A DNA stretch of 64,000 bases from Thermococcus profundus (GTDB lineage: Archaea > Methanobacteriota_B > Thermococci > Thermococcales > Thermococcaceae): NCBI RefSeq assembly GCF_002214585.1, contig NZ_CP014862.1, positions 248,001 to 312,000 on the forward strand. The letters run 5' to 3'. A model generated the notes under the pieces. It saw only the letters and a program-made list of their open reading frames with translations, did not search any database and was not told the DNA's origin. The translations under genes and the position numbers were made by a program. Positions 12,945 through 34,472 of this stretch are shown here, in pieces. The stretch's first letter is position 1. The number at the start of each line of letters is the position of its first letter.

Positions 12945-13022
12945 TGACATCACCAATAGCGGTTCGAAAAGGATGGATAAAAAGGTTTTCATCAGAAGAG
13001 GAAGTTCTAAAATGAAACGACA

Positions 13023-18751: not shown

Positions 18752-19717
18752 TCAGCCCCTGTAGAAGATGTCCAGTTTCGATGGGTCTTTTTCGAGGTAG
18801 CCTCCGAGGTAGGCCAGCCTCCACTCGGACTTTATGCCCTCTATAAGGTCGTCGTCAAGCTCGTCGTCGTTGACCTCGACTCTGTCGTAGAGGATATCGA
18901 GGGTCTTGGCATCGAGGTGGTAGAGCTTTCCGAGTATCTCCTTGGTCTCGTCCTCGTTCTCCTCCCAGAACTTGGCACTCTTCTTTTGAGCTTTTACGAA
19001 GGCCTTAACGAGGTCTGGATGCTCATCGGCGAAGTCCTTCCTCACGACCCAGACGAGCATTACAGGCTCTCCTTCAACGATGTCCCTATCCTCCGCCTCA
19101 TTCCAGAGGTCTTCGAAGGTCGCTATGACGCTTACATTGCTGGCTATAAGCTCGCTCACTATCGGCTCCCAGATGACGACGGCATCCACATCGTTGAGCG
19201 AGTCCTTTATCGAGCCGGGCGGGACGTTAACAACTGTATAGTCATCGGGCGTTAAGTTGTAGAGGACTTTCATGTAGGCCTGGAAGAGCTTGAAGGTTCC
19301 CGATGCCACAACCGCCCCGATCTTCTTCCCTCTGAGGTCTTCGGGCTTCATCTTCTTTCCGAGTATCGCCTGGTTCTGCATCATGTCAACTGCAACTATC
19401 TCTATCTCAGTCCCCCTCTGAGCAAGCTTTGCCGCCATCTCGGCAGGGATGACAGCAAAGTCCGTCTCGCCCTTCGCGAGGGCCGCTATTATGTCCGGCG
19501 TCTTCCCGAGGCGGAGAACCTGGACTCTAAAGCCGTTCTCCCTGTCGAAGCCCTTAGCCTCCATGATGTCGAGGGTGCTTATTCCTCCCATGAGCGTCGC
19601 GGCCCTAACTGTTGGGAGCTCAGTTGTCGTGCCTGTTGAGGCCTTTTCATTCGAGCCAACACATCCAGCGGTTAGGACGACCATTCCAACGAGTAGAAGG
19701 GCGAGCCATTTCCTCAT
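18752..19717 (-). CDS. NMT1/TauA-like substrate-binding lipoprotein
   Basis: 321 residues. A signal peptide ends in the lipobox LTAGC (Cys at about 19) followed by a Ser/Thr-rich linker; the rest is a type-2 periplasmic-binding fold of the NitT/TauT group (ATLMGGISTLDIMEAKGF, GETDFAVIPAEMAA, VVIWEPIVSEL). Lipid anchoring places it outside the cytoplasmic membrane. The ATG follows GGAGGTGGT and abuts the ubiA stop. The same fold is used by the menaquinone-pathway enzymes MqnA and MqnD, but those lack a lipoprotein signal, so I read this as a transporter component. Confidence 0.85.
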   Translation of the reverse strand: MRKWLALLLVGMVVLTAGCVGSNEKASTGTTTELPTVRAATLMGGISTLDIMEAKGFDRENGFRVQVLRLGKTPDIIAALAKGETDFAVIPAEMAAKLAQRGTEIEIVAVDMMQNQAILGKKMKPEDLRGKKIGAVVASGTFKLFQAYMKVLYNLTPDDYTVVNVPPGSIKDSLNDVDAVVIWEPIVSELIASNVSVIATFEDLWNEAEDRDIVEGEPVMLVWVVRKDFADEHPDLVKAFVKAQKKSAKFWEENEDETKEILGKLYHLDAKTLDILYDRVEVNDDELDDDLIEGIKSEWRLAYLGGYLEKDPSKLDIFYRG

Positions 19718-20626
19718 TCAACCACCTCCGTAGAGCTTTACCAGGACGTCGGCTATGGCGGCAAGCGTTAGTATCAGCCCGATTGGGATGTTGAGGTTGA
19801 ACGCCTTTGGCACGTTCTCAAGGTCCCTCCAGACGATGACGTTCTCGTAGATGATGAGCGCGCTCCCTATAAGCCAGCCAAGGGCGTAGATCCACCCAAG
19901 ATTATAGAGCGGAATCGCCAGACCGAAGAAGGCTATTGCTATGAGATGGAAGATAAAAGCTATCTTGAGTGCTTTCTCAATGCCAAACCTTGCTGGTATA
20001 CTTCCGACGCCGTGCTTTACGTCGAACTCGTAGTCCATTATCGCGTAGATCGTGTCAAATCCAGCCACCCAGAAGAGAACTCCAAAGAAGAACGCCCAGG
20101 GAACCCTTTCGAGGAGGACCAGCAGGTTGGCCTCGTCTCCGCCAGCCGCTATCGTCCCAGCGGTGACAGCTAAAGCGAGGGTAAGGCCTAGATGTAGGTG
20201 CGGAAAGCTGTGCTTCCTCTTCGCTCCTGAATAGCTCATGGCTATTATCCATGGAATCGGGCTTAAGACAGCGGTCCAGAAGTTGAGGAGGACGGCTGAA
20301 ACGAAGTAGAGGCTCGAGCCGACAACGACAAGCCACCAGGCGTCGCTTATCCTAACGGCTCCCTTAATCAGCGGTCTGTTCCACGTCCTCGGGTTCTGGC
20401 TGTCTATGTCGAGGTCGGCAATGTTGTTGTAGGCCATCGTTGCCGTTCTGAGGCCGAGAAGGGCTAGACTCATCCAGATGATCTCCCAGAGGGTAACCTT
20501 AAAGCCGCTCAAAAATGCTCCGACGTAGGCATACGGTAAGCTGAAAAGGGTATGCTCTATCCTGACTAGCCTCATCAATGCATGGAACCTACTGGCTTTG
20601 CCCACCTCTCCGGGATCGAAGGCCAT
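19718..20626 (-). CDS. ubiA: UbiA-family aromatic prenyltransferase
   Basis: 302-residue integral membrane enzyme with about eight or nine hydrophobic segments. It transfers a polyprenyl chain to an aromatic acid. Both Asp-rich motifs are present: NNIADLDID near residue 77 and DTIYAIMDYEFD near 195; the DxxYAxxDxxxD form is that of 4-hydroxybenzoate/menaquinone-type (UbiA, MqnP) enzymes rather than of the archaeal lipid GGGP synthase. ATG 20626 follows CGGTGA inside the ubiD end, one base after its stop. The frame continues to 20701 inside ubiD and is discarded. The likely chain donor is the product of the synthase at 34473. Confidence 0.88.
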   Translation of the reverse strand: MAFDPGEVGKASRFHALMRLVRIEHTLFSLPYAYVGAFLSGFKVTLWEIIWMSLALLGLRTATMAYNNIADLDIDSQNPRTWNRPLIKGAVRISDAWWLVVVGSSLYFVSAVLLNFWTAVLSPIPWIIAMSYSGAKRKHSFPHLHLGLTLALAVTAGTIAAGGDEANLLVLLERVPWAFFFGVLFWVAGFDTIYAIMDYEFDVKHGVGSIPARFGIEKALKIAFIFHLIAIAFFGLAIPLYNLGWIYALGWLIGSALIIYENVIVWRDLENVPKAFNLNIPIGLILTLAAIADVLVKLYGGG

Positions 20627-20627
20627 T

Positions 20628-22073
20628 TCACTCACCGAGGTACTTTTTGAAGAGTCCTTCAAGCCTTTTGAGCACTTGGGGGTCTTCCTCCACTTCCTCA
20701 ACGACCCTCCCGTTCATTTCCTCCGGGAGTTTTCTGGTGGCATCTATACCGAGCTTGCTTCCGAGCGGCGGGTTTGGAACGGCCGGATCGAGGGCATCGG
20801 TGTGGGCGTTCGGGATAACTAAAACGTCCCTCTGCGGGTCAACGAAGGAAGCTATCGCCCAGATAACTTGGTTGATGTCGTGTGGGTTGATGTCCTCGCT
20901 GACGACCACTATAACCTTAGTAAGTGCGGCCTGTCCGGTTCCCCAGAGGGCATTGAGGACTTTCTTCCCATGCCCAGGGTAGCGCTTCTTTATAGAGACT
21001 ATTGCGATACCTTGAAAGACGCCGTACTCCGGGAAGTTTACATCCACGACCTCCGGGAGGATCATTTTCATCATGGGAAGGAAGATCCTCTCGATAGCCT
21101 TTCCAATGACTGCATCCTCCAGTGGGGGCTTTCCGACGACTGAACCATAGTATATCGGGTCGTCGCGGTAGTAAACCCTCTCGGCGTGGAAAACAGGGTA
21201 AAGCTCGTTCCTCTCTGCTGGCTTGTCGTAGAAGCCGAAGTGGTCCCCGAAGGGACCCTCCTCGTGGAGCTCTTTAACATCAACGTAGCCCTCTATCACC
21301 GCTTCCGCGTTGGCCGGAACTAAAACTCCGTTGGGCAGGCGGTAGAGTTCGAGGCCCTTCCCGCGGACGAATCCAGCAAAGAGGAGCTTGTCGAGCGGGT
21401 AAGGAACCGGTGAGACCGCCGTTAATAGAGTCCCTATGTCCGAGCCGATGGCTATCGCCACGGGCATCTTTCCGCCGTTCTTCTCTATATAATCCCGCCA
21501 TGCCTGACTTCCGCGCTTGTGTATCTGCCAGTGGAGAACAGCTCTCTCGCCGTCGAGGAGCATCACCCTGTAAACGCTTATCGAGTTCACTTCCTTTGGA
21601 TCGGAGAAGCAGACGAGGGGATAGGTGAGATACCTTCCAGCGTCCCTAGGCCAGGTTTTAAAAGCGGGAATAAAGTCGAGCGGGTTGTCTTCAATAACGT
21701 TCTTCGTGAATTCAGCCTTCCTCACGACCTTTGGGAGATAAGCGCTCATCTCCTTCAGTCTTCCCAGGGAGGAGAGCTTATCGGAGAAGCCGAGCGGGAG
21801 GCCCTCGAAGAGCTTAAGCGGTCTCTCCCCTATCTCCTCAAGCCTCTCAACGCCGAGAGCATCTTTGAGCGTCTCAACGCCCGTGAAGAGGTTTCCAGCT
21901 ATTCTCCACTCGGGATAGCCCTTAACCCTCTCGAAGAGAACGGCACCAGCCTTCGAGTACATAACCCTCCTCAGAAAGGCCGGTATCTCAAGCTCAGGTG
22001 ATAGCTCTTCCTCTACTCTAATCAGCTCCCCCCGTTTCTCGAGCCAGCTTAAATATTCACGCATGTCCTTCAT
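20628..22073 (-). CDS. ubiD: UbiD-family prenyl-FMN-dependent decarboxylase
   Basis: 481 residues, the normal UbiD length. Visible family features include WPRDAGRYLTYPLV near residue 140, HWQIHKRGSQ near 180, EGPFGDHFGFYD near 277 (with the catalytic-region Glu) and VVSEDINPHDINQV near 395. UbiD enzymes decarboxylate the prenylated aromatic acid in quinone synthesis (UbiD, MqnL), and others act on unrelated aromatic acids. They need prenylated FMN made by UbiX, which is not in this window. The ATG lies three bases after the ABC ATPase stop; MREYLSW at 22064 is an alternative start. Confidence 0.88.
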   Translation of the reverse strand: MKDMREYLSWLEKRGELIRVEEELSPELEIPAFLRRVMYSKAGAVLFERVKGYPEWRIAGNLFTGVETLKDALGVERLEEIGERPLKLFEGLPLGFSDKLSSLGRLKEMSAYLPKVVRKAEFTKNVIEDNPLDFIPAFKTWPRDAGRYLTYPLVCFSDPKEVNSISVYRVMLLDGERAVLHWQIHKRGSQAWRDYIEKNGGKMPVAIAIGSDIGTLLTAVSPVPYPLDKLLFAGFVRGKGLELYRLPNGVLVPANAEAVIEGYVDVKELHEEGPFGDHFGFYDKPAERNELYPVFHAERVYYRDDPIYYGSVVGKPPLEDAVIGKAIERIFLPMMKMILPEVVDVNFPEYGVFQGIAIVSIKKRYPGHGKKVLNALWGTGQAALTKVIVVVSEDINPHDINQVIWAIASFVDPQRDVLVIPNAHTDALDPAVPNPPLGSKLGIDATRKLPEEMNGRVVEEVEEDPQVLKRLEGLFKKYLGE

Positions 22074-22076
22074 CGC

Positions 22077-22841
22077 TCAGACCTCCACCCTCGGCCTTAA
22101 AACCCTTTCACCGGCGCATTCTATAAGCTTCAGCTCCACCCCGTAGGCCTCGCTGAGGAGTCTCTCATCTATAACCTCCTCTGGCTTCCCATTGGCGATT
22201 ATTCTACCACCTTTCATCAGCAGGACCCTGTCCGCGAAAAGCCCGGCTAGATTGGGATCGTGGAGAACCACGAGTGAGCCAACCCCTTCTTTTGTGAGCC
22301 TCTTCACCGTTTGAAGAACCAGAAGGGAATTTTTAAGGTCGAGGTTGCTCGTAGGTTCATCCAAAAGGAGGTATCTTGGCGAGGTCATTAAGGCCCTCGC
22401 AATGAGGAGTAACCTTATCTGTCCGCCGCTCAGCGAAGTGTAGGGCTTTTCAGCGTACTTTTCAAGGCCGAAGAGCCTCAAAAGTTCCATCGCCTTTTCC
22501 CTGTGCTTCTTACTCGGAGCGCCAAAGGGTCCGAGTTCCGGAGTGGCTCCGAGAAGAACAAAGTCAAGGGCCTTGAACGGGAACGTTGGAACGTGGTTCT
22601 GTGGCACAAAGCCGATGAGCTTAGCCTTTTCAGATGGAGAAAGCTCGGCAATGTTCTTCCCATCAACCTCAACCTTCCCCCTCTCCGACTTGAGAAGGCC
22701 AAAAAGGAGCTTGAGGAGGGTGCTCTTTCCTGCCCCGTTCGGGCCTATTATCGCAACTAACTCTCCCTTATCTAGTGTGAGGCTGACGTTTTCAACCGTG
22801 AAATCCCCGTAGGAGAAGTAGAGGCCTTCAGCCCTCAGCAT
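22077..22841 (-). CDS. ABC transporter ATPase, heme/cobalamin/siderophore type
   Basis: 254-residue BtuD/FecE/HmuV-type ATPase. Walker A GPNGAGKST is near residue 34, Q-loop VPQNHVP near 79, signature LSGGQIRLLL near 134, Walker B RYLLLDEPTSNLD near 155 and switch His in VVLHDPN. It pairs with the permease at 23442 and the lipoprotein at 25281. The ATG overlaps the end of the flavodoxin gene by 14 bases. The substrate class of the family is iron-siderophore, heme or cobalamin. The porphyrin-enzyme neighbours favour a tetrapyrrole. Confidence 0.87.
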   Translation of the reverse strand: MLRAEGLYFSYGDFTVENVSLTLDKGELVAIIGPNGAGKSTLLKLLFGLLKSERGKVEVDGKNIAELSPSEKAKLIGFVPQNHVPTFPFKALDFVLLGATPELGPFGAPSKKHREKAMELLRLFGLEKYAEKPYTSLSGGQIRLLLIARALMTSPRYLLLDEPTSNLDLKNSLLVLQTVKRLTKEGVGSLVVLHDPNLAGLFADRVLLMKGGRIIANGKPEEVIDERLLSEAYGVELKLIECAGERVLRPRVEV

Positions 22842-23445
22842 TCCTCTCCAGCTCCCTCATCTTCTCCATGAAATCGAAGTTTCTTACTTTCTCCAGCTCG
22901 CCCCTCCTGAAGTGCTTTCCAAACCAGTCGTAGTAGAGGAGCGTCCTCCTCACGAAGGCCCTGACGTCCTCCTCCCGGTAAAGGCTCTTCCTCTCGAGCT
23001 TCTCACCCAAAGCAAGGTAAAACCTCTCCATCTTTCTTCTGTCCTCCTCGCTCAGCTTCTCCGGCTCTACTTCTCCCCCTATCAGCGTCCCGTAGAAGGG
23101 CGGAACCTCGAAGGCCTCTATCAAGGGCTGTGAATAGGCTATCCCGCCGTGCAGTCTGCCCATGAAGACAGAACCAGCGAGGTGCATCGCAACGAGGAAG
23201 AAGGCCTTGGGAACTTCTTCAAGCTTTTCCTTGTGCCTCTCAACCCACTCCATAAGGTCCCAGTGCGGGCCGTCTCGGTAAACCGGGGCGGCCATTATCA
23301 CGAGGTCGTAGCCTTCTGGGGCAGGGTTATTTTCAACCCTCTTCACGTCAACCTCGTGTCCTTTTTCCCTTAGCAATGAAGCGGTGAGCTTCACAGCCTT
23401 CTCAGTTGAGCCGTATCTCGTTGTATAAACTATCAAAACCCTCAC
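22828..23445 (-). CDS. Flavodoxin-type, HemG-like protein (putative porphyrinogen oxidase)
   Basis: 205 residues. The N-terminal flavodoxin domain opens VRVLIVYTTRYGSTEKA, the FMN-binding loop, and has YDLVIMAAPVYRDGPHWDL near residue 50 and AMHLAGSVFMGRLHGG near 90. This overall form, a long-chain flavodoxin with a C-terminal helical extension, is that of HemG-type protoporphyrinogen IX oxidase. The start is GTG at 23445, overlapping the permease stop (GTGA); the open frame above it is not coding. The extension after residue 150 (WFGKHFRRGELEKV) is not familiar. A generic flavodoxin role remains possible. Confidence 0.65.
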   Translation of the reverse strand: MRVLIVYTTRYGSTEKAVKLTASLLREKGHEVDVKRVENNPAPEGYDLVIMAAPVYRDGPHWDLMEWVERHKEKLEEVPKAFFLVAMHLAGSVFMGRLHGGIAYSQPLIEAFEVPPFYGTLIGGEVEPEKLSEEDRRKMERFYLALGEKLERKSLYREEDVRAFVRRTLLYYDWFGKHFRRGELEKVRNFDFMEKMRELERNAEG

Positions 23446-24383
23446 TCCCAGGCACCCCCGGTCTTTCTGAGGAGGTAAGCGAAGAACGGAACGCCAACGA
23501 CGGTAGTTATTATTCCCACGGGTATGTCCCCGGGAAGAAGTCTGACTATGACATCCGCCAGAACCATGACCGTTATCCCCATCGAGATGGTAGCAAGAAT
23601 AAGCTTTGAATGCTCCGGGCCGACGAGCATTCTGGCGGTGTGGGGGACGATTAAGCCCACCCATCCGATTATACCCGTGGAGGATATAACCAGAACCGTC
23701 AGCAGGGCGGAAAGGAAAACGAAGGTTCCTCTCCACAGCGGGACGTTCACTCCAAGGAGTTCCGCCTCATCACCCAGGCTCATGACGTTGAGCCTGAAGC
23801 GGAGGAAATAAAGGAGTATCGCGAGAACAACAACTCCAGGAAGAGAATAGTCAACGGTTCTCCAAGAGACGTTTGATAAACTGCCCATGAGCCAGACTAC
23901 CAGACCTGAAAGGCTCTCGCTCGAGAGGAGAAGCTCTAGGAGAGCCAGAAGGGCGGAGAAAAGCGAGGTGACTATTATGCCAGCGAGAACCAGCGAGACC
24001 GTTGAGACCCTACCGTTGACCCTCGCGAGGGAATAAGCGATGAAAACCGCCAGAAGGCCGAAGACCAGTGCAACTGGAGCGATCCCAGCCATCGGGAGGA
24101 AGGAAACTGCTAGAGCGGCCCCGAGGGCAACCCCCGAGGAGACGCCGAGGATGTAGGTGTCCACCAGCGGGTTCCTGAAAACGGCCTGGAGAATCATCCC
24201 GCCCAGACCGAGGGCCATTCCGGCCGAGATTCCCATCAAAGTCCTCGGAAGCCTGATGTTCCAGATAATCCTTTTTCCAAGCTGGTCAAGGTGGAGAGGA
24301 TTAGTCGGATAACTCCCCACGAAGATTCCGAGGAAAACTGCAACCACTGGAAAGATAAGCAGGAGGATAAGGCCCTTCCTCAT
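23442..24383 (-). CDS. FecCD/BtuC-family ABC transporter permease
   Basis: 313-residue membrane permease with about nine or ten segments. Hallmarks are RLPRTLMGISAGMALGLGG near residue 45 and NPLVDTYILGVSSG near 72, plus GWVGLIVPHTARMLVG near 240. It forms a dimer carrying heme, cobalamin or iron-siderophore through the membrane. The ATG overlaps the preceding stop (ATGA). It is shorter than the permease of the second iron-type system at 45069 but has the core intact. Confidence 0.88.
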   Translation of the reverse strand: MRKGLILLLIFPVVAVFLGIFVGSYPTNPLHLDQLGKRIIWNIRLPRTLMGISAGMALGLGGMILQAVFRNPLVDTYILGVSSGVALGAALAVSFLPMAGIAPVALVFGLLAVFIAYSLARVNGRVSTVSLVLAGIIVTSLFSALLALLELLLSSESLSGLVVWLMGSLSNVSWRTVDYSLPGVVVLAILLYFLRFRLNVMSLGDEAELLGVNVPLWRGTFVFLSALLTVLVISSTGIIGWVGLIVPHTARMLVGPEHSKLILATISMGITVMVLADVIVRLLPGDIPVGIITTVVGVPFFAYLLRKTGGAWE

Positions 24384-25255
24384 CGCTCTACCCCGCAGAG
24401 CCTGTAGAGTTCCCTAGCTACCGGTTCCCAGTCAGGGTAAAGGTCCGGATAGATTACCTTTCCGAGCTGGTATATTCCGGGTATTATCCTTGGACTCCAG
24501 CGCATAAAACTGTTCCTGTCTATCGCCGAGCCGAGGATGTGGACTTCCCCACTATCTACGGCCTTTACCTTCCTCCACTCGCTTGAGTCAAGCATCTCGT
24601 CCCTGATTCTTTTCAGCTTTTCCTCGCTCGTGAGGACGCTGGTGAGCAGGATGAGAACGTCGGCCTCACTAAAGCGCTTTAGGAACTCTTCGAATGGTAC
24701 AGGAATTACCTTTCTGTGTGTCGGGAGCTTCCCCATATACTCCGCCCCGGTCTTTTCTACTGCATCACTTAGAACGTTTGTCTGGGTAACGACGTTTATC
24801 CCGCGGTAGAGCATCACAACCTTTCTCCGCTCTTCCACGCCGCTGGAGATTTCTTTAATCCCCTCAAGGTGTCTCCTGTAGAATTCAAGGAGCGTTGAAG
24901 GGTCTCCATCGAGCAGGTCGGCGATTTTTTGAGTTATCGGGAAAAGGTCTTCCACCTTAACGATGTCGAAGAGGGCTAACTTTGCGTTGTGCCTCTCGGC
25001 GAAGGCCCTAAGCTCGTCTATGCTGTAGAGCGTGTCTATCTCGAAGTCCATTATGACCTCTGGTCTCAACTCTTCGAGAATGTCCCAGTATGTCAACTTC
25101 TCCCTCTGAAGGTATTTTCCCACTACCGGCCTGTCCCTGAAGTCTGGCAGGCAGTAGTCGAGCTTTATCTCCTCGTTGACTCCGGCTATTTTATCGCCTG
25201 CACCGACAAGCTTTGCTATCTCCACGAGCGATGCCGGGAAGATTACCGCCCTCAA
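24380..25255 (-). CDS. Periplasmic-binding-like protein lacking a signal peptide
   Basis: 291-residue protein of the BtuF/FecB type-3 binding fold. It aligns by eye with the lipoprotein at 25281 from that protein's residue 60 on (VIFPASLVEIAKLVGAGDKI against AILSTSALEIVQLLGAENQV; both share a SFLRWSPR/SFMRWSPR motif near the end) but lacks its signal peptide, lipobox and linker. The start is TTG at 25255, backed by GGGGTGA at good spacing. Only 25 bases separate it from the lipoprotein stop, so no lost 5' part can be hidden there. It should therefore be cytoplasmic. A substrate-accepting role inside the cell is possible; function not known. Confidence 0.75.
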   Translation of the reverse strand: MRAVIFPASLVEIAKLVGAGDKIAGVNEEIKLDYCLPDFRDRPVVGKYLQREKLTYWDILEELRPEVIMDFEIDTLYSIDELRAFAERHNAKLALFDIVKVEDLFPITQKIADLLDGDPSTLLEFYRRHLEGIKEISSGVEERRKVVMLYRGINVVTQTNVLSDAVEKTGAEYMGKLPTHRKVIPVPFEEFLKRFSEADVLILLTSVLTSEEKLKRIRDEMLDSSEWRKVKAVDSGEVHILGSAIDRNSFMRWSPRIIPGIYQLGKVIYPDLYPDWEPVARELYRLCGVER

Positions 25256-25280: not shown

Positions 25281-26345
25281 TCAGGAGAGGCTGTAGAACC
25301 TCTTGAGGAAGTCGTTGGCTTTGTCCTTCCAGTCCGGATAGTAGTCAGGGTAGATGGCCTTTCCTACCACCCAGATCCCGACGGCCATGCGCGGGCTCCA
25401 GCGGAGGAAGCTGTCCTTATCGAGTTCAGCTTTAAGGACGTAGACGTTGCCCTCGTTAACTGCCTTTATGCCCTTCCACGCCTCATCGTTCAGCATCTCG
25501 TTCTTAATTGCCTCAACTTTGTCGTAGGGAGTTACCGCACTCGTGAGCAGAATAAGGACATCTGCATCTTTGAACTGGGCTATGATCTTCTCCTTGTCGA
25601 GCGGGACTCTAACCGGGCTGTAGCCTTTGAAGGTGAAGTTGGCCATGTATTCTGCCCCAACCAGCCTAACCGCCTGGGCAAGAACGTCGTTGCCGTTGAC
25701 GACGAAGTACTTGCCCATTATCGGCTGTATCATGACGACTTTCTTCCTCTTCTCAGTGGGTATCTTCTCGGCGATCTTCTTAACTTCGCTGACCTGCTCG
25801 TTGAAATAGCTGGTGAACTCTCTCGCCTTATCTTCTCTCCCAAAGACCTTTCCAAGGAGTTCTACTGCCCTTGGAATGTCCTCCAGTTTGTCCTCGCGGA
25901 GCATTATAACTGGGATTCCGTAGCTGGTCGACCTGCTCAGGAATTCGTCAACGTCGTAAAACTTCTTGAGGTAGAGGTTCACCATGAGGTCCGGCTTTAA
26001 AGCTAAAACCTTCTCCCAGTCGTCTATCTTGAGCCTCTTTCCTACTATTGTCTTGTTCTTGAGCTTGTCGGAGAGGAATGTATCGGCTTTAGCTTCAGCT
26101 GGTATTCCGACGACCTGGTTTTCTGCACCCAACAGCTGGACTATCTCAAGGGCAGAAGTGGACAGTATAGCAGCCCTCTGCACCGGGACCTTAAGGGTAA
26201 CGCTCCGCCCTGCGAGGTCATTAACTGTTATCTCTTTGGGTGTCGCGGATGTTGTTTTCTCACTGCTTCCAGAGTTGCTCACACATCCGGCTGAGAGGAC
26301 TGAGAGGAGTAAAACTGCTATGAGGATTATCCCGGCCTTCCTCAT
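25281..26345 (-). CDS. Substrate-binding lipoprotein, heme/siderophore/cobalamin type
   Basis: 354 residues. A signal peptide ends in the lipobox LSAGC (Cys about 21), followed by a Ser/Thr-rich linker and a type-3 binding fold (ITVNDLAGRSVTLKVPVQR, ALKPDLMVNLYL). Anchored outside the membrane, it hands the ligand to the permease at 23442. I start at ATG 26345, after GAGGTGGTGGAG; an upstream ATG at 26378 would run through the radical SAM gene end. The ligand is probably a tetrapyrrole or chelated iron. This is inferred from the neighbouring porphyrin enzymes. Confidence 0.85.
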   Translation of the reverse strand: MRKAGIILIAVLLLSVLSAGCVSNSGSSEKTTSATPKEITVNDLAGRSVTLKVPVQRAAILSTSALEIVQLLGAENQVVGIPAEAKADTFLSDKLKNKTIVGKRLKIDDWEKVLALKPDLMVNLYLKKFYDVDEFLSRSTSYGIPVIMLREDKLEDIPRAVELLGKVFGREDKAREFTSYFNEQVSEVKKIAEKIPTEKRKKVVMIQPIMGKYFVVNGNDVLAQAVRLVGAEYMANFTFKGYSPVRVPLDKEKIIAQFKDADVLILLTSAVTPYDKVEAIKNEMLNDEAWKGIKAVNEGNVYVLKAELDKDSFLRWSPRMAVGIWVVGKAIYPDYYPDWKDKANDFLKRFYSLS

Positions 26346-26355
26346 CTCCACCACC

Positions 26356-27558
26356 TCAAACCGGCTTTTCTTCACCAAAGGTTCCGATCGGGAGTTTTAT
26401 TCCGAGTTGGGAGGCGAGCTTGAGGTAGGTTCCGGGCTGGTAGGGACAGGCGGGATCTTCAGCGAGTGGATCAACATGGTAGGCATAAGCCCTTGCCCTG
26501 CTCCCGCCGCAGACCTCTTTGAACTCGCAGGCTCCGCATCTTCCTTTGAACTCGGCCGACCGGAGCTTTCTCATAAGCTCTGAGTTCTGGTAGATATCCA
26601 CGAGGCTCTTCTCCCCCACGTTTCCAGCCGGATAAGGTAGGAAGCCGCTTGGATACACATCGCCGCGGTAGGAGATGAAGACTATGCCCTTGCCGTCCCT
26701 CGTTCCCATAGTTTGAGCTTTTGCTTCTCCTCCCTCTCCGAGAAGCTCTACCAACCTCTTCTTGAGCCTGAAGTAGAGTTCTCCAGGCTTAAGAACCTCG
26801 TCCGGGTTTATCCCCTTCTCCTCGAGGGCCTTCCTCATTATGGCAACTCTCCTGAACATCGGCCCTTCGGTGGTTCTCACGAGAAGGTGTTTTGACGCCT
26901 CGTAGAGGAAGTGGGTAACGTCCTCCCACTCCTCTGGCCTCAGATCGCTCTCGAAGCTCCCCCTGCCAGTGGGAACTAGGTAGAAGACCTCCCAGATGTT
27001 CACGCCGAGGTCTTTGAGGAGCTTGACCATATCTGGGAGGCCATCAACGGTCTCGCGCATAACCACAGTGTTTACCTGAACGCTCACTTCTCTCTTCAGG
27101 AACTCCTTTATAGCCCAGACTGTCCTCTCCCACGTCCCTTCTATGCCCCTTATCGAATCGTGAACCTCCGGGAAGGGGCTGTCGAGGCTTATACTTACCG
27201 CTTTAACGCCGTGCCTGACTATCTCGTTTATCGTCTCCTCCGTGAGGAGTGGAGTAACCGCTGGAGCGAGACCGACGCGAATGCCTTTCTCCACGGCGTA
27301 ATCGATAAGCTCGAAGATGTCCTTCCTCATTAGCGGGTCTCCACCGGTGAGGATGAGTATCGGGTAGGGCCTTCCAAAATCTGTGAGCGAGTCTATCAGC
27401 TTCTTTCCCTCTTCGGTTGTCAACTCTCCTGGAAGGGCCTGGAGGATGGCCTCAGCGCGGCAGTGCTTGCACTTGAGCTGGCATGCCTTTGTAGTCTCCC
27501 AGAATACGAGGATGGGCTTTCTGTCGTAGGGCCATTGGTTAGATTTCCCTCGGTGCAT
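26356..27558 (-). CDS. Radical SAM/SPASM protein, heme-pathway type (AhbD/TIGR04053-like)
   Basis: 400 residues. The radical SAM cluster motif is TTKACQLKCKHCRAEA near residue 20, GGDPLMRKD near 67 binds SAM, and a SPASM-type end CGACEFKEVC-GGSRARAYA plus a later DPACPY supplies cysteines for auxiliary clusters. The RARAYA element is shared with the AhbD/NirJ group that modifies heme side chains. A decarboxylation of Fe-coproporphyrin to heme is a plausible role; other peptide or heme substrates are possible. ATG 27558 follows GGTGG; ATG 27570 overlaps that site. First gene of the long operon. Confidence 0.75.
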   Translation of the reverse strand: MHRGKSNQWPYDRKPILVFWETTKACQLKCKHCRAEAILQALPGELTTEEGKKLIDSLTDFGRPYPILILTGGDPLMRKDIFELIDYAVEKGIRVGLAPAVTPLLTEETINEIVRHGVKAVSISLDSPFPEVHDSIRGIEGTWERTVWAIKEFLKREVSVQVNTVVMRETVDGLPDMVKLLKDLGVNIWEVFYLVPTGRGSFESDLRPEEWEDVTHFLYEASKHLLVRTTEGPMFRRVAIMRKALEEKGINPDEVLKPGELYFRLKKRLVELLGEGGEAKAQTMGTRDGKGIVFISYRGDVYPSGFLPYPAGNVGEKSLVDIYQNSELMRKLRSAEFKGRCGACEFKEVCGGSRARAYAYHVDPLAEDPACPYQPGTYLKLASQLGIKLPIGTFGEEKPV

Positions 27559-27603
27559 TTCGACCACCATCTTTTAGGTTACCAAAATAAACTTAGCACT
27601 GCC

Positions 27604-27660: not shown

Positions 27661-28656
27661 TTAGTAGTAGCCTTTCGCTTCCTCGACCTTTCCGCCGAAC
27701 ATCCTGTAGACGTAGAGGGTGTAGGCCATGATGATCACTGCAAGTATTACTGAGACTCCCAGCACTGCCTGGAGTGTCAGCGGTGATGCGGCTAAATCAT
27801 TGATGCTGAGCTTGAAGTTCGGGTCGGTCGTTGAGATGACCCAGTAGGGATACATGCTGTAGTAGACGAGATAAACAACCAGCGGGAAGGCCAGCCAGCT
27901 GATGTAGAAGCTGAGCTTCTCGTCCCCCTTCTTGATGAGGTAGCCGTCGAGCAGTCCTGCTATAAGGATTATCAGCGTCAGCGTCAGGCCGAGCGGCGTC
28001 AGTGCCCTTTCGAAGCGAAGAGGTGCCCAGATCTTCATGCCGACCACGACGAGCAGCAGGAAGACCACCGTGAGGATCCAGAAGTTGAATGCCTGCTTTC
28101 TCATCTGCTCCTGGAGCTTTCCGGTCGTCTTGTAGACCGCCCAGTTGGCCCCGTGCCACATCACCGCGAAGAGGACGAAGAGGCCGACTATCAGCGGGAA
28201 CGGCCTAAAGAGCGTCAGGAGCGAGCCGTGGAAGCCGCTGGCATCTATCGGAATTCCCTCTATGAGATTGCCGACGATGACGCCGATGACGAGCGGTATG
28301 AGTGCACTGACGAGAGCGAAGAGCTTGTCCCAGAGGGCCTTGTTTCTGTTCCTGAACTCAAAGCCAACGGCCCTGAATATGAACAGGAACGCCAGCAACC
28401 AGACTGCGAGGTAGAACGTGCTGAAGAGCGTCGCGTAGAGGGCCGGCCACATTGCAAAGATTCCTGCACCCCAGGTGATGAACCAGACCTCGTTGCCGTC
28501 CCACACCGGGGCTATCGTGTTGATTAGTACGTCCCTGTCCTTCTGGTCCTTGACGAAAGCTAAAAGGCTTCCCAGTCCGAGGTCGAAGCCGTCGAATGCC
28601 AGGTACATTCCAAGGAGGAAAGCCGAGAAGTAATACCAGGCAGTCGCGTAGTCCAT
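27661..28656 (-). CDS. cydB: Cytochrome bd quinol oxidase, subunit II
   Basis: 331-residue membrane subunit with about eight or nine hydrophobic helices. The N-terminal YLAFDGFDLGLG (about residue 18) is the CydB hallmark, followed by WDGNEVWFITWGAGIFAMWP near 50. It pairs with CydA to form the terminal oxidase. ATG 28656 overlaps the cydA TGA by one base (TGATG) after GGAGGTGG; GTG 28659 is an alternative. It is the last gene of the cyd unit. The chain is intact. Confidence 0.93.
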   Translation of the reverse strand: MDYATAWYYFSAFLLGMYLAFDGFDLGLGSLLAFVKDQKDRDVLINTIAPVWDGNEVWFITWGAGIFAMWPALYATLFSTFYLAVWLLAFLFIFRAVGFEFRNRNKALWDKLFALVSALIPLVIGVIVGNLIEGIPIDASGFHGSLLTLFRPFPLIVGLFVLFAVMWHGANWAVYKTTGKLQEQMRKQAFNFWILTVVFLLLVVVGMKIWAPLRFERALTPLGLTLTLIILIAGLLDGYLIKKGDEKLSFYISWLAFPLVVYLVYYSMYPYWVISTTDPNFKLSINDLAASPLTLQAVLGVSVILAVIIMAYTLYVYRMFGGKVEEAKGYY

Positions 28657-30179
28657 CACTGACCACCTCCCGCGGCGCTAACGGCTGGGGCGGGCTTGGC
28701 GGTTGGGTCGCCCTCAACGGGCTCGGGCCCCTCCCTGACGAGCTTCTTGACGAAGTGGAGCCAGATGTAGAACAGTATCGTGTAGACCACGACGAAGCCT
28801 ATTAGGGTTATGAGAACGCTGGTTGCCGAGACGTTGGATGAGACGCCGGTGTTTACCGTAACCATTCCCCAGACCATCCAGGGCATCCTGCCGACTTCGT
28901 GGGTGAACCAGCCGGCTTCACCTGCGAACCACGGGAGCGGGAGGGTGTAAACGAGCACCTTGAGGAACCATCTAGAGTCGTAGAGCTTGCCGAGGAGCAG
29001 GAGGAGCACTCCAAGGCCGCCTATCAGGATGAAGAGCGTTCCAAGGCCGACCATGACGCGGTAGGCGTAGAACATGAATGCAACCGGAATGCTCTCCTCG
29101 AGAACCTCGACCATCTTCTCGTTTGCCTTCGGGTCGTTCGGATTAATTCCGTGGGCCCTCATAATCTGCTCGACGACCTCCTTCTTCACCTTCTCGTCTG
29201 CGTAGTTCGGGTTGTTGAGCACCTGCTGGTACCAGACGTACTCGGCCGCGTCGTGTAATCCGAGGACCTTAGCGTTCCAGTCTCCGAAGGCCAGCCAGCT
29301 CAACAGCTTAGGAATTCCTATGGCCGCTTTGACCTCCCGGTTCTTCTCGTCAACTATTCCGAAGACCAGCATAGGTGCGCCTTCCTCTGTCTTGTAGAGA
29401 CCTTCGTCGGCCGCCAGCTTGGTTGGCTGGTACTTGGCTATGACGGCACCCTCCTCATGGCCGGTTGGGTAGAGCTGGATTATCGAGCTTATAGCGAGAA
29501 CGACTATTCCTATAGCTACCGCGCTCCTTGCCACCTGAACGTGCCTCTTCTTGAGGAGGTAGTAGGCACCGACCGCGGCAACTATGTAAGCACCTGTGAT
29601 TATGGCCGAGTTGATGGTGTGGGTGTACTGGCTAACCATCAGCGGGTTGAACACAGCTTTCATGAAGTCGGTCAGCTCGGCCCTCGGTCCAAGCGGAGTG
29701 TCCTTGATTATGTACGCGGATGGAACCTGCTGCCAGCTGTTTGCTATGAGAATCCAGAGGCCGGAGAGGCTTGAACCGATGAAGACGAAGAACGAGGCGA
29801 ACCAGCTTATGACCCTCGGGAGCCTGTCCATGCCGAAGAGCAGAACGCCGATGAAGGTCGACTCCAGCGCGAAGGCGAAGAGACCCTCGAGCATCAGCGG
29901 CGGACCGAAGATTGAGCCAACGAACGTTGAGTAGTTTGCCCAGTTGGCACCGAACTCGAACTCCATGACTATTCCCGTTGGAACGCCGAGAACGAAGAAC
30001 ACTCCGAGCCACTTGCTGAAGAACTTCGCTGCCTTGTGCCACTGCTCCTCGTTGGTTATCGCCGCCATTGTCCAGAGGAGGAATACCATGAAGCCCATTC
30101 CTATGCTTGCCGGCACGAAGATCCAGTGGTAGCCTGCGGTTAAGGCGAACTGAATTCTAGACAGCAACACCGGATCCAT
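28656..30179 (-). CDS. cydA: Cytochrome bd quinol oxidase, subunit I (heme- and quinol-binding)
   Basis: 507-residue membrane oxidase subunit that reduces O2 to water with quinol electrons. Residues corresponding to known heme sites are present: His18 (high-spin heme region), His187 (TNM-type QYTHTINSA, low-spin heme b558), Glu98 and Glu106 (EGLFAFALE), and GWFTHEVGRMPW in the later heme region. In the quinol-binding Q-loop, QPTKLAADEG places Lys254 and Glu259 opposite E. coli Lys252 and Glu257. GGAGGTGA precedes the ATG. Nothing is missing that would make it inactive. A bd oxidase is unexpected in Thermococcales, classically strict anaerobes. Confidence 0.95.
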   Translation of the reverse strand: MDPVLLSRIQFALTAGYHWIFVPASIGMGFMVFLLWTMAAITNEEQWHKAAKFFSKWLGVFFVLGVPTGIVMEFEFGANWANYSTFVGSIFGPPLMLEGLFAFALESTFIGVLLFGMDRLPRVISWFASFFVFIGSSLSGLWILIANSWQQVPSAYIIKDTPLGPRAELTDFMKAVFNPLMVSQYTHTINSAIITGAYIVAAVGAYYLLKKRHVQVARSAVAIGIVVLAISSIIQLYPTGHEEGAVIAKYQPTKLAADEGLYKTEEGAPMLVFGIVDEKNREVKAAIGIPKLLSWLAFGDWNAKVLGLHDAAEYVWYQQVLNNPNYADEKVKKEVVEQIMRAHGINPNDPKANEKMVEVLEESIPVAFMFYAYRVMVGLGTLFILIGGLGVLLLLLGKLYDSRWFLKVLVYTLPLPWFAGEAGWFTHEVGRMPWMVWGMVTVNTGVSSNVSATSVLITLIGFVVVYTILFYIWLHFVKKLVREGPEPVEGDPTAKPAPAVSAAGGGQ

Positions 30180-30227
30180 TCCACGTCACCTCCAAGTTTG
30201 TCCCTCAAACTCAGGATACCGACTCCC

Positions 30228-30243
30228 AAACTTATAATGTTTT
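30228..30243 (-). promoter_or_regulatory. cydAB promoter
   Basis: On the minus strand AAAACATTATAAGTTTG lies about 50-65 bases upstream of the cydA ATG. It gives cydAB its own promoter, separate from the small gene upstream, whose T-run terminator lies just before it. Confidence 0.5.
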
Positions 30244-30268
30244 CGGGAAGTCGAATATTCTTCTGGTT

Positions 30269-30295: not shown

Positions 30296-30499
30296 CTAAC
30301 TTCCCGCCTTTGGCTTGCTGAAAAAACCGATTCCATGGGCCTCGGCTGCGTAGAGAGCGAAGCCGACAGTGAAGAGCATTCCTACCACAATCCATACAAC
30401 GTTGTGCAGCAGGAATGCAAACAATACGAACAGCAGTGTCAAGAGTATGGCGACCAGTCCTATCGTTACCTCCTTCCCGGTTTCAGCTTTCACGGCCAT
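30296..30499 (-). CDS. Small membrane protein upstream of cydAB
   Basis: 67 residues with two hydrophobic helices (about 12-31 and 35-52), a charged N-terminus and a GFFSKPKAGS tail. The ATG follows GGTGAT, and a TATA-like AAAACGATATAAGA lies 35-48 bases upstream, so it is probably a real gene. It sits divergently to the SQR-like gene and in the same direction as cydAB. It could be a small accessory subunit of the oxidase, as CydX/CydS are in bacteria, but it has two helices rather than one and no recognisable motif. Confidence 0.6.
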   Translation of the reverse strand: MAVKAETGKEVTIGLVAILLTLLFVLFAFLLHNVVWIVVGMLFTVGFALYAAEAHGIGFFSKPKAGS

Positions 30500-30647: not shown

Positions 30648-31796
30648 ATGGCGAAGGTTTTGATACTCGGCGGAGGAACCGCCGGACTGGTCGCTGGGAG
30701 GTATCTGACTGCTGAGGCAAAGAGACTTGGGATTGACGTTGACGTAACGATGGTCACCGCGAGCGAGAGGCACTACATGCCGCCGCTGTTCATGGAAGTG
30801 GCCTTGGGTTCAGCCGCTCCACATGAAACGTGGGCACCGATAAAGAACGCGGAAAAGGTCTATGGCTTCAAGGTCGACATCGATAAAGTTACGGACATAG
30901 ACTTAGCTAACAGGCATGTAAAGACCGAGAGCGGAAAGGTCTACGACTACGACTACCTCTTCCTCGGCCTCGGTGTCAAGTACGTCTGGGACAAGTACAA
31001 GGGCATGAACGAGTACGGCTACCACAACTTCACGCTTGATGGGGCGGTTGAGCTCCACGAGAAGCTCTTCCAGTTCAAGGGAGGTAAGGTAGTCATCTAC
31101 ACTCCAGAGGGGCCACACCGCTGTGGAATCTACCCCTACGAGATGAGCCTCAACCTCAGGATGTACTTCGAGCACCGCGGAATAGAGGACGTCGAAATAA
31201 CCGTCGTCCACCCTGATAAGGAGCCTGCCATCGGACTCGGACCCGACTTGATCCGGTTCTTCAGCAGGGAGATGGAGAAGGCTAGGGTTAAGTTCATACC
31301 AAACGAGGGTCACGTCGAGATAACGCCCAACAAAGTCGTCACCAAGAACGCAGAAGTCGAGTACGACCTCCTCATAAAGGTGCCGCCGATAGCGATACCG
31401 GATGTTATGGCCTTCATGGCCGACGATAAAGATCCAAGGTGGGCGAAGGTTAAGGGACCGGACTTCAGGTATCCTGACTACGATGAAGTTTACATCGTCA
31501 GCGAAGCTTCAATGCCACCACTTGGACTCCTTACCGCTGGCGTTCCGCTCCACAACGCGGCGATAGTTGCTTCAACTAGCATACTCCACAGGATACACGG
31601 TGGTTATCCGGTTGCCGAATACGCGCCGACCCTCTGTGTGGGACACGGCTATAACACCGGCTTCTCAGGAAACTGCGAGTACGAGTGGAAGGGCAACAAG
31701 TACAAGCGCGAGTGCTACCTGCTCTTCAAGAGCCCGCTCGTGAGGCTGATGAAGGATTCCTTCTACAGGGGCTGGCTCGACAGCCTGAGGTTGTGA
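30648..31796 (+). CDS. Sulfide:quinone oxidoreductase/NDH-2-like flavoprotein
   Basis: 382 residues of the SQR/type II NADH dehydrogenase family, peripheral membrane FAD enzymes that reduce quinone. The FAD site LGGGTAGLVAGRYL is at 7-20, and the second segment YDYLFLGLGVKY is near 101. Cys159 (HRCGIYPYE) matches the SQR cysteine usually at about 160 and Cys330 (TLCVGHGY) is in the region of the third SQR cysteine; the first one (near 128) is not seen. Two more cysteines (343, 356) lie in a C-terminal segment. GGAGGTG precedes the ATG. The DUF1641 partner downstream is typical of SQR-linked loci. Sulfide is the likely donor, as sulfur reduction makes it abundant. Confidence 0.82.
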   Translation: MAKVLILGGGTAGLVAGRYLTAEAKRLGIDVDVTMVTASERHYMPPLFMEVALGSAAPHETWAPIKNAEKVYGFKVDIDKVTDIDLANRHVKTESGKVYDYDYLFLGLGVKYVWDKYKGMNEYGYHNFTLDGAVELHEKLFQFKGGKVVIYTPEGPHRCGIYPYEMSLNLRMYFEHRGIEDVEITVVHPDKEPAIGLGPDLIRFFSREMEKARVKFIPNEGHVEITPNKVVTKNAEVEYDLLIKVPPIAIPDVMAFMADDKDPRWAKVKGPDFRYPDYDEVYIVSEASMPPLGLLTAGVPLHNAAIVASTSILHRIHGGYPVAEYAPTLCVGHGYNTGFSGNCEYEWKGNKYKRECYLLFKSPLVRLMKDSFYRGWLDSLRL

Positions 31797-31806
31797 GGTG
31801 GTGAAG

Positions 31807-32229
31807 ATGAGCGAACTTAATCTCACTCCGGAAGAGATAGCGGCCGTTAAGGAGCTCGCCGAGGTTGCTCTAGCTCTCAAGAAGGGCGGGACCCTCGGCC
31901 TGCTCAAGGCCGTGACCGAGAACGGAGACAAACTCCTCGAGACCATAGCGGAGGAAAAGGCAGTTTTGAGACTCCTCGGTGTTGGAAACGCGGCCCTCGA
32001 ACCCGTTAGAGAGCTTGAAACGAGCGAGGTCAGGGAGATAGAGTGGAACACCGAGGAACTCGTTAGGGCGCTCCTTAAGGCTTTGTCTAAGACGGATCCG
32101 AAGGAGATCCCGAGGGTTGGCATGACGGCTGCACTCGGTTATCTCAGAGATGAGGACGTTCAGAAGGGCCTCGGCTTCCTGCTGACCCTCGCCAAGAACC
32201 TCGGAGCGGCCATGAACGGCAAGCTCTGA
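31807..32229 (+). CDS. DUF1641 protein, partner of the SQR-like enzyme
   Basis: 140-residue helical protein, with no membrane segment, matching the DUF1641 pattern (ending VGMTAALGYLRDEDVQKGLGFLLTLAKNLG). In other prokaryotes this family is found beside SQR or FAD dehydrogenase genes. The function is unknown; a scaffold or membrane-docking role has been supposed. ATG 31807 follows GAGGTGG; the upstream GTG codons at 31798 and 31801 overlap that site. It begins ten bases after the flavoprotein stop. Confidence 0.72.
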   Translation: MSELNLTPEEIAAVKELAEVALALKKGGTLGLLKAVTENGDKLLETIAEEKAVLRLLGVGNAALEPVRELETSEVREIEWNTEELVRALLKALSKTDPKEIPRVGMTAALGYLRDEDVQKGLGFLLTLAKNLGAAMNGKL

Positions 32230-32257: not shown

Positions 32258-33145
32258 GTGAGGATTCTCTTCACTTACATGGGAGCGCCCACAACTCCAG
32301 ATGAAATAGGGGACTTCATCTTCCGCTTCCTCTACGATGTCAGGCACCACATAGGCCTCGACGTTCCAGGGGCTAGGGTAATAATCAAGGGAATAGCTAA
32401 GGCCAGGGCGAGGCAGGTTAAATCCCACTACGACGCGATAGGTGGTAAAAGCCCCCTCGTGGATTACATGCGCGAGATAGCTGAAGGGGTGAGCGAGAGA
32501 ACAGGCTATGAGATAGAACTCGGTATGTGCTACTCAAGGCCACTCCTTGAAGAGATTGAAGGGCCCTTCGATTTGGTCTTCCCGATGTACCACGTCTATT
32601 CAAGCTCAACGACAGAGCGCTGTCTCGTTAAAATCCGTGAACTCTTTGGCGAAGTTCCCTATGTAAGAGAGTGGTATGAGAACGGGAAGTTCGTTGTGTG
32701 GGTCAGGGAGAACATCAGGGCTGGCCTTAAAGAGAGCGGCTTTGAGAACCCTTACGTTATCCTAAGTGTTCACAGCCTTCCGAAGAGGGTCATAGACGAG
32801 GGTGACCCCTACCTAGAGAGCCACCAGAAGCTTGCCAAAACCGTCATGGAGGCCTTTGACTCCCCCTGGGAGATCGCCTTCCAGAGCAAGTTCGGAAAAG
32901 GTGAATGGCTCGGCCCGGATGTTCCCGAGGTCCTTGAAAGGCTGAAGGGAGAGGGAGTTGAGGAGGTTCTAGTTTATCCGCTCAGCTTCCTGGTTGAGAA
33001 CATCGAGACCCTCTACGAGCTGGATGTTGAGTATAAGGAGGTCGCCGATAAACTCGGTTTGAAGTACTACCGCGCCAGGTTGAATCACCGCAGTCCCCTG
33101 CTCATCGAGGCTATCTCGGAGGTGATTGAGAATGCATCCGGTTAA
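32258..33145 (+). CDS. hemH: Ferrochelatase
   Basis: 295 residues, inserts Fe(II) into a porphyrin. The signature is clear: VILSVHSLPKRVIDEGDPY near residue 170 with the catalytic His, AFQSKFGKGEWLGP near 205, and NIETLYELDVEY near 250 with the conserved Glu. The start is GTG at 32258 behind GGGGGTGA. Such enzymes act on protoporphyrin IX (HemH) or coproporphyrin III (CpfC). No upstream porphyrin synthesis gene is in the window. In the middle of the SQR operon it would supply heme to cytochrome bd. Intact. Confidence 0.92.
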   Translation: MRILFTYMGAPTTPDEIGDFIFRFLYDVRHHIGLDVPGARVIIKGIAKARARQVKSHYDAIGGKSPLVDYMREIAEGVSERTGYEIELGMCYSRPLLEEIEGPFDLVFPMYHVYSSSTTERCLVKIRELFGEVPYVREWYENGKFVVWVRENIRAGLKESGFENPYVILSVHSLPKRVIDEGDPYLESHQKLAKTVMEAFDSPWEIAFQSKFGKGEWLGPDVPEVLERLKGEGVEEVLVYPLSFLVENIETLYELDVEYKEVADKLGLKYYRARLNHRSPLLIEAISEVIENASG

Positions 33146-33170
33146 AACCCAAACCCGTGAGGTGAGCGAT

Positions 33171-33506
33171 ATGAGGAGCTTTGCCAACGCTTTCATAGCC
33201 TACATCATGGGCTTCGTCGGGGGAATTCCCCTTATACTAATGAAGGACACCGACGAGTTCACCAAGAAGCACGCGGCCTACTCCAGCGTCCTCGGATTTT
33301 TCGCCTGGCTGGCGTTCATGGCGGTCTGGCACATGCCCGTGAACAAGGTCTACCCCCACTTCGGGCCGGCTATCTACGTCGTTTACGCCTGGTTGATATA
33401 TGCTCTCTTTGGAATTTACACCTACATGAGGGGCAGGCTTTACAGAATTCCCGGAATAGACGGTCTCGCCGAAAAGCTCATTAAGGGCCTCTCCAACGCC
33501 GTGTGA
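33171..33506 (+). CDS. Small membrane protein, possibly DUF4870-like
   Basis: 111 residues with three hydrophobic segments and the stretch FTKKHAAYSSVLGFFAW near residue 31, similar to the HA-containing region of DUF4870/Tic20-type proteins. ATG 33171 follows GAGGTGA; an ATG at 33132 would lie within the ferrochelatase end. Located between ferrochelatase and the DUF3887-like gene. Function not known. Confidence 0.6.
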   Translation: MRSFANAFIAYIMGFVGGIPLILMKDTDEFTKKHAAYSSVLGFFAWLAFMAVWHMPVNKVYPHFGPAIYVVYAWLIYALFGIYTYMRGRLYRIPGIDGLAEKLIKGLSNAV

Positions 33507-33515
33507 GGGATAACC

Positions 33516-34472
33516 ATGAAAAAAGCCCTGGTAATCTTTCTTTTTGCTCTCATACTTTTATCGCCTGTTTTCGCCAGCTCTCCTGCTCGAGGCGACGAAT
33601 TCATGGGGAAGTTTATTGGGGCGATAAACACTGGGAACTACTCCCTTATAGAGCCGTATATGAGCGACGAGCTTAAGGCGCAGTTCACGGAGGACTACTT
33701 CCAGAACCTCAGGGAACTAACGCTGAAAAACTACGGGAAACTGAAGGAGTTTACCTATGATGGCAACGAGACCCGGGGGGATTTGTTAAGGCTGAAATAC
33801 ACGGTCAATGCCGAAAAGGGCTCGTTCCCGGTTCTCATCGTCTACCGCAACGATGAACTCGTTGGTCTTGCCCTTGGACTAACTCCGAAGCCCAACCCCA
33901 CGGGCATGCTCGCGGCCATGGGGGGTGCGCTAATCGCTTTAGTTGGTCTCTACCTGTGGAAGAGGAGGCTGAGCCTTTCGGAGCTTGCGTTGGGTTCCGG
34001 GCTGGCGCTGGTTCTTGCAATAATCCTTCCATTCTACTCCCTAACCGGAACTCTCCTCCTTTCAAGGGCTGTTTCCATTCCACTAGTATCTCTCCTCAGC
34101 GCTCTGACTATCGAGGCTGGAAAGTACTACCTGGCAAAAAACAGAGATGGCCTCTCCATTGGCCTCGGTCTCGGCATCGGTCAGTTCATCCTTCTTGGGA
34201 TAGGAACGTTCGTTGCCACCAACTTCATAATGAAGCTCCCTGTCTCGTTCACCGGAGACGTTCTGCCTTTATTCCTTGAGGCCGTGATTTTCACTGCTTT
34301 CTATGCTTTGAGCACGGAGGTCTACTCAAAGAAGAGGGGCATGCTGCCTTTTACGGTTTTTGTGATATTTGAGTTTCTCTCGCTCTACCTCCTCGGTCTT
34401 GGGAGTGTCTACGGCTCACTGGTAATAGCTCTGGCCGGAGCCGCGTTAGCCTGGAAGCTCGGGGGTGAATAA
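33516..34472 (+). CDS. Signal-peptide membrane protein with DUF3887-like and YhfC-like parts
   Basis: 318 residues. A signal peptide (1-20, ending VFASSPA) is followed by an external domain with FIGAINTGNYSLIEPYMSDE near residue 32 and LKNYGKLKEFTYDG, which resembles DUF3887. From about 125 there are six or more membrane segments, and EAGKYYLAK near 205 resembles the conserved Glu region of YhfC-type putative membrane peptidases. The ATG lies ten bases after the previous stop. The domain calls are by eye. Its place between ferrochelatase and the polyprenyl synthase suggests a maturation or transport role at the membrane. Confidence 0.6.
   Translation: MKKALVIFLFALILLSPVFASSPARGDEFMGKFIGAINTGNYSLIEPYMSDELKAQFTEDYFQNLRELTLKNYGKLKEFTYDGNETRGDLLRLKYTVNAEKGSFPVLIVYRNDELVGLALGLTPKPNPTGMLAAMGGALIALVGLYLWKRRLSLSELALGSGLALVLAIILPFYSLTGTLLLSRAVSIPLVSLLSALTIEAGKYYLAKNRDGLSIGLGLGIGQFILLGIGTFVATNFIMKLPVSFTGDVLPLFLEAVIFTAFYALSTEVYSKKRGMLPFTVFVIFEFLSLYLLGLGSVYGSLVIALAGAALAWKLGGE

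Follow-up and report, generated by a model that had tools for sequence, protein, structure and literature searches.

Thermococcales are textbook strict anaerobes, and the presence of cytochrome bd oxidase genes in Thermococcus profundus raises the question of whether they encode a working enzyme and, if so, where its electrons, quinone and heme come from. The window, a stretch of 64,000 nucleotides of this genome (NZ_CP014862.1, positions 248,001 to 312,000), carries cydA, which encodes the 507-amino acid subunit I, at 28656-30179. The preliminary description gave exactly these coordinates; the gene lies on the minus strand, which was not stated there, and its setting was overlooked: cydAB is located within a gene block of about 18 kb, and a homolog of sulfide:quinone reductase (SQR) is encoded divergently next door. 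On balance, the locus probably encodes a working high-affinity cytochrome bd within a co-inherited module, which would pass electrons from sulfide to O2 and complete its heme and quinone from precursors that the cell scavenges.

The presence of cydAB in Thermococcus is not new. The genes tg1232-1233 of T. gammatolerans were described in 2009 as an oxidase for protection against O2, and UbiE, UbiA and UbiD genes near CydAB were reported in the same paper (PMC2718504). In 2012, the CydAB of T. sp. AM4 was grouped with that of T. gammatolerans in one laterally acquired clade (PMC3512248). SQR, ferrochelatase and the small open reading frame (ORF) described below are not mentioned in the accessible part of the T. 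gammatolerans paper (PMC2718504). New here are the co-inherited module with its SQR pairing and small ORF, the signature residue Asp258, a deletion scar and, probably, the dependence of the module on scavenged cofactors.

Pfam and NCBIfam assign both CydA and CydB to bd oxidase families. CydA matches the Pfam family Cyt_bd_oxida_I (PF01654) with an E-value of 2e-145 and 485 bits; cydB (27661-28659, minus strand) lies directly downstream, overlaps cydA by 4 bases and encodes the adjacent partner subunit II, which matches PF02322 with 262 bits and is over the cut-off of TIGR00203. An AlphaFold model of CydA (pLDDT 81) matched ten CydA chains of known structure, which come from E. coli, mycobacteria and Geobacillus, with a best TM-score of 0.85. 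In a MAFFT alignment, CydA is 37% identical to E. coli CydA, and the six residues named in the preliminary description, His18, Glu98, Glu106, His187, Lys254 and Glu259, indeed correspond to H19, E99, E107, H186, K252 and E257 of the E. coli protein; further pairs are Met376 and M393, Arg374 and R391, Trp424 and W441, Glu428 and E445, and Arg431 and R448. The His, His, Met and Glu heme ligands are all found in the domain, and the protein shares the fold, the heme ligands, the proton-channel glutamates and the equivalents of Lys252 and Glu257 with E. coli cytochrome bd-I. The six residues and the other named ligand and channel residues are invariant across 15 Thermococcus relatives. The median dN/dS of cydA is 0.08 in comparison with ten relatives, which supports the earlier statement that the gene is not decaying. 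It is therefore well supported that cydAB is intact, under selection and encodes a predicted bd-type quinol oxidase.

CydA retains the Q-loop residues equivalent to Lys252 and Glu257, and Lys254 and Glu259 class it as an enzyme of the quinol-oxidase type, which falls outside the E. coli long-loop group. A cryo-EM study from 2026 identified Tyr243 and Arg298 as catalytic residues that occur solely in enzymes with a long Q-loop (PMC13189123). Assignment of CydA to this E. coli-like class was rejected, as neither residue is conserved: Tyr243, Arg298 and Asp239 of E. coli bd-I are replaced by Ala245, Gly299 and His241, respectively, and the Ala245 position is variable among relatives. The Q-loop stretch comprises 115 residues compared with 134 in E. 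coli bd-I, and is intermediate between the short (68 residues) and long (134 to 144 residues) forms among the matches listed. Given the replacement of Tyr243 and Arg298 and the intermediate Q-loop length, the quinol site cannot simply be equated with that of E. coli. A further difference is Asp258, which occupies the position of E. coli Ile256. It had been pointed out that hydrophobic residues are usual here, and this was borne out: an aspartate is present in all 16 other Thermococcus CydA proteins and in 0 of 80 other CydA proteins among the matches listed, which carry I, F, M, L, V or Y instead. Asp258 offers a marker for how a quinol site may have adapted. Residue 432 is also unusual; it lies in a GRMPW motif instead of the usually conserved GRQPW, the glutamine of which is found in 79 of 80 other CydA proteins among the matches listed, and the Thermococcus relatives carry either methionine (9/16) or glutamine (7/16).

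The closest described relative, CydAB of T. gammatolerans, is orthologous, and its CydA is 85-86% identical. Outside Thermococcus, the best match among those listed is CydA of Desulforadius tongensis, with an identity of 42% (tblastn) to 47% (alignment); all ligands are shared, and its Q-loop is short, with a stretch of 68 residues. A phylogeny of CydA had been proposed as a check, and it yielded a Thermococcus clade with a long stem; the search for a donor failed among the matches listed. The GC content of the module (53.7%) is close to that of its surroundings (54.4%), and composition shows no sign of recent transfer.

The distribution of cydA is patchy. It was found in 18 of 94 Thermococcaceae genomes, all of one genus; across 115 genomes of the phylum, no others carried it. 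Nineteen of the 94 Thermococcaceae genomes contain ferrochelatase, and the SQR orthologue occurs in the same 19, namely the 18 cydA genomes and one additional genome (G066), in which the contig begins at SQR. If genomes were independent, the probability that these 19 include all 18 cydA genomes would be about 2e-18, a value that overstates the co-occurrence and is only a guide because the genomes are related. Module gene order is the same in the 17 other genomes, where contigs allow. An orthologue of the module's UbiD that is at least 83% identical is present in 17 genomes and one of the radical SAM enzyme in 16, each with the module. The UbiD family by itself was rejected as specific to the module: nearly all Thermococcaceae have a second UbiD, which is 33-37% identical and presumably an enzyme of the archaeal mevalonate pathway, so that only proteins with at least 83% identity were counted as the module copy. 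In the host genome, this second UbiD-family decarboxylase is encoded at G000:C1:998390-999373.

Ten module genes have omega values of 0.06 to 0.13, indicating purifying selection. At the other end of the distribution, one genome (G020) has an empty site, in which the epimerase and polyprenyl synthase genes lie side by side; the polyprenyl synthase gene at 34473 was therefore rejected as a module gene. In another genome (G028), a scar (L068, 17650-18150) joins the truncated end of the NMT1 ATPase gene to the truncated end of the flanking polyprenyl synthase gene, and ubiE is left as an orphan. The joined remnants show a joint loss of the respiratory genes, and hence at least one loss of the entire module. 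The sequence evidence for the oxidase, and for its inheritance together with the module, is strong.

Between cydA and the SQR gene lies an unannotated, conserved ORF of 67 codons (30296-30499, minus strand), upstream of cydA. Its product contains two hydrophobic stretches, predicted to form two membrane helices, and matched no Pfam or NCBIfam family. The ORF has identical length in all 17 other module-bearing genomes and a median dN/dS of 0.16 (125 pairs). The protein is a candidate accessory subunit of the bd oxidase. An identification as CydX was rejected: CydX is a protein of about 37 amino acids with one helix and a YxxWxxG motif, which is encoded downstream of cydB, and the 67-amino acid protein differs in all of these features. 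No CydX is recognizable here, in contrast to E. coli bd-I. A survey of CydX proteins described an uncharacterised hydrophobic small protein encoded upstream of cydAB in operons with a long-loop CydA and no CydX (PMC4325964). An alignment of 18 intergenic regions revealed a nearly invariant promoter-like element of cydA, CCGAAAACATTATAAGTTT, which resembles BRE/TATA sequences (30228-30246, minus strand). In these regions, the 67-codon ORF and cydA each have their own conserved TATA-like box, so that they may be transcribed separately, which somewhat weakens the idea of a subunit. An inverted repeat, GTTTG-N5-CAAAC (30196-30210), is located between the TATA-like box and the start codon of cydA; it is the sole exact match within the window, with 0.14 expected, is largely conserved in the same alignment and may be an operator.

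How the oxidase obtains its heme has to be considered in view of the lack of HemB (ALAD), the marker enzyme by which the tetrapyrrole pathway was judged: it is absent from the genome of the window, and no de novo tetrapyrrole route was found. Between cydB and the UbiD gene, all on the minus strand, the module encodes a radical SAM/SPASM enzyme (26356-27570), a substrate-binding lipoprotein, SBP1, of the Peripla_BP_2 family (25281-26378), a second Peripla_BP_2-type binding protein (24380-25255), a FecCD/BtuC-type permease (23442-24383), a flavodoxin-domain protein (22828-23442; PF12724), which is weakly HemG-like (37 bits versus a cut-off of 142), and an ABC ATPase of the heme/iron type (22077-22841). 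A ferrochelatase gene (hemH) follows on the plus strand at 32258-33145 (PF00762, E-value 2e-63; TIGR00109 over cut-off). Ferrochelatase is retained in every cydA genome, which makes a metal-free porphyrin the likely input. In porphyrin salvage, ferrochelatase would insert iron into a porphyrin taken up via the FecCD-type importer, and an AhbD-like radical SAM reaction, the decarboxylation of coproheme, would complete heme b. The radical SAM enzyme belongs to TIGR04053 (523 bits, cut-off 395); the next best model is the heme b synthase AhbD (TIGR04545), to which it scores 302 bits, below the cut-off of 500. Another importer with a Peripla_BP_2-type binding protein and a FecCD-type permease, as judged by Pfam, is encoded outside the module (43933-46852).

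Alternatively, the cell could take up whole heme, in which case ferrochelatase and the radical SAM enzyme would just modify or recycle tetrapyrroles. SBP1 weakly matches the heme-binding protein IsdE and the ATPase is of the heme type, both of which are in line with this idea, as is the lack of the radical SAM gene in T. gammatolerans; the presence of ferrochelatase in every cydA genome, however, would be difficult to account for if complete heme sufficed, which makes heme import the rather less likely route. T. gammatolerans (G019) has UbiD, UbiA, NMT1 ABC transporter and UbiE genes alongside cydAB, as in the window; unlike the window, it lacks the porphyrin/iron importer, flavodoxin and radical SAM genes between UbiD and cydB, while cydAB, SQR and ferrochelatase are kept. 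This block is therefore not indispensable.

The quinone presents a similar case. The presence of the known routes was judged by the marker enzymes MqnA/MqnD and MenD: MqnA and MqnD of the futalosine pathway were found in none of 94 Thermococcaceae genomes, MenD of the classical menaquinone pathway was not found in the genome of the window, and both head-group routes were rejected on these grounds. Ubiquinone ring hydroxylases and chorismate lyase were not detected among the module genes examined. What the module retains on the minus strand is a UbiD-family decarboxylase (20628-22073), a UbiA-family prenyltransferase (19718-20623, start inferred), which is MqnP-like rather than similar to proteobacterial UbiA, and a UbiE/MenG-type methyltransferase (16733-17491; TIGR01934, 221 bits, over cut-off). 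The closest models for the UbiA and UbiD genes are MqnP and MqnL (mena_SCO4490), respectively, each below cut-off, and UbiX, which produces the cofactor of the decarboxylase, is encoded elsewhere in the genome. Together, prenyltransferase, decarboxylase and methyltransferase would be the enzymes required to convert a naphthoic acid to menaquinone. As MqnA/D and MenD were not found, the quinol would derive either from scavenged head groups or from an unrecognised pathway. A candidate for head-group uptake is the NMT1-type importer encoded between UbiA and UbiE on the minus strand, consisting of a substrate-binding lipoprotein (18752-19717), a permease (18017-18748) and an ATPase (17403-18041). 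A naphthoic-acid-like head group would enter the cell through this importer and would then be subjected to MqnP-like prenylation, MqnL-like decarboxylation with prFMN supplied by the cell's own UbiX, and methylation by UbiE.

The model of the NMT1-type binding protein (pLDDT 83.7) has its best fold matches in TauA, the PQQ-binding protein PqqT and SsuA; a lower-ranked match is the archaeal MqnA/D-related protein AF1704. The predicted fold is compatible with an aromatic acid and equally with a sulfonate. It is therefore conceivable, if somewhat doubtful, that an unrecognised pathway supplies the head group by de novo synthesis and that the substrate of the NMT1-type transporter is another compound, for example a sulfonate. 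The taurine-binding TauA is not only the best fold match but also the best match in the PDB by sequence, and the quinone routes were probed by MqnA/D and MenD only. The position of the transporter genes between UbiA and UbiE, which is kept in the genomes readable there, and the retention of precisely the three enzymes needed from naphthoate onward argue against this possibility. No known de novo route was found for heme or for the menaquinone ring, and the cell therefore probably finishes both cofactors from precursors that it imports.

The third requirement of the oxidase is an electron donor. The SQR homolog (30648-31796, plus strand), which is divergent to cydA, has an Acidianus-type SQR (3h8i) as best PDB match. 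The two redox-active cysteines near the FAD that are expected of an SQR are present: in the alignment, Cys159 corresponds to Cys178 and Cys330 to Cys350 of the Acidianus ambivalens enzyme, and both are invariant in 16 sequences, whereas overall similarity to this enzyme is low (63 bits). Downstream on the same strand are genes for a DUF1641 protein (31798-32229; PF07849), a probable SQR partner, and, beyond ferrochelatase, for two membrane proteins conserved in the module, one without a Pfam or NCBIfam family (33126-33506, start uncertain) and one with a weak DUF3887 match (33516-34472). Thermococcus produces H2S from sulfur, and SQR, a quinone and cytochrome bd would therefore constitute a short sulfide-to-O2 chain. 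In this chain, the SQR homolog, the likely electron donor to the oxidase, would oxidise self-produced H2S to polysulfide or sulfur, thereby reducing a membrane naphthoquinone, and CydAB, perhaps together with the 67-amino acid protein, would oxidise the quinol and reduce O2 to water. The chain would remove O2, conserve some proton-motive force and regenerate sulfur, the cell's usual electron acceptor. A literature search found no paper tying SQR to Thermococcus, and a survey of archaeal SQR reported euryarchaeal SQR solely in Thermoplasmatales, with Thermococcus not listed.

Alternatively, CydAB could serve ordinary O2 detoxification and be fed by another dehydrogenase, with the SQR homolog acting, independently of the oxidase, in sulfide or redox detoxification. 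O2 detoxification is how the 2009 paper reads the T. gammatolerans oxidase (PMC2718504), and the SQR homolog stays below the cut-off of the type III SQR model, which describes a selenoprotein subtype (115 bits compared with 525). However, cydA and SQR are divergently paired and present in the same genomes, both redox cysteines are invariant, and no other quinone reductase was seen among the module genes, so that a separate donor is unlikely and sulfide is the predicted one. Scavenging of O2 is most likely the benefit of the bd oxidase. The preliminary description regarded the oxidase as a quinol-dependent O2 scavenger that acts in addition to a flavodiiron protein. The latter is real (11715-12992, with ODP and flavodoxin domains), and an intact bd oxidase under selection agrees with this view. 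The term quinol-dependent, on the other hand, passes over the source of the quinol, since neither MqnA/D nor MenD was found, and the lack of HemB poses an equivalent question for heme. That the module is a relic or an unexpressed import would fit its patchy distribution and the loss of the whole module in at least one case, but is highly improbable given the strong purifying selection on ten module genes, the intact CydA residues and the conserved promoter-like elements.

In its most far-reaching form, the preferred reading amounts to a "cofactor-auxotrophic respiration", that is, a complete aerobic sulfide-oxidising chain in a hyperthermophilic, sulfur-reducing fermenter that takes the precursors of both cofactors from neighbouring organisms, the module being gained and lost as one cassette and having its own bd accessory subunit; this version is put forward tentatively. 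It predicts that naphthoate and porphyrin are taken up, that O2 is consumed in a sulfide-dependent manner and that the oxidase has a new type of small subunit. If true, a compact O2-respiring module with sulfide as a donor would explain how some of these archaea survive in the mixing zones of vents, and it would show that an organism can gain respiration without the pathways that make the cofactors needed for it.
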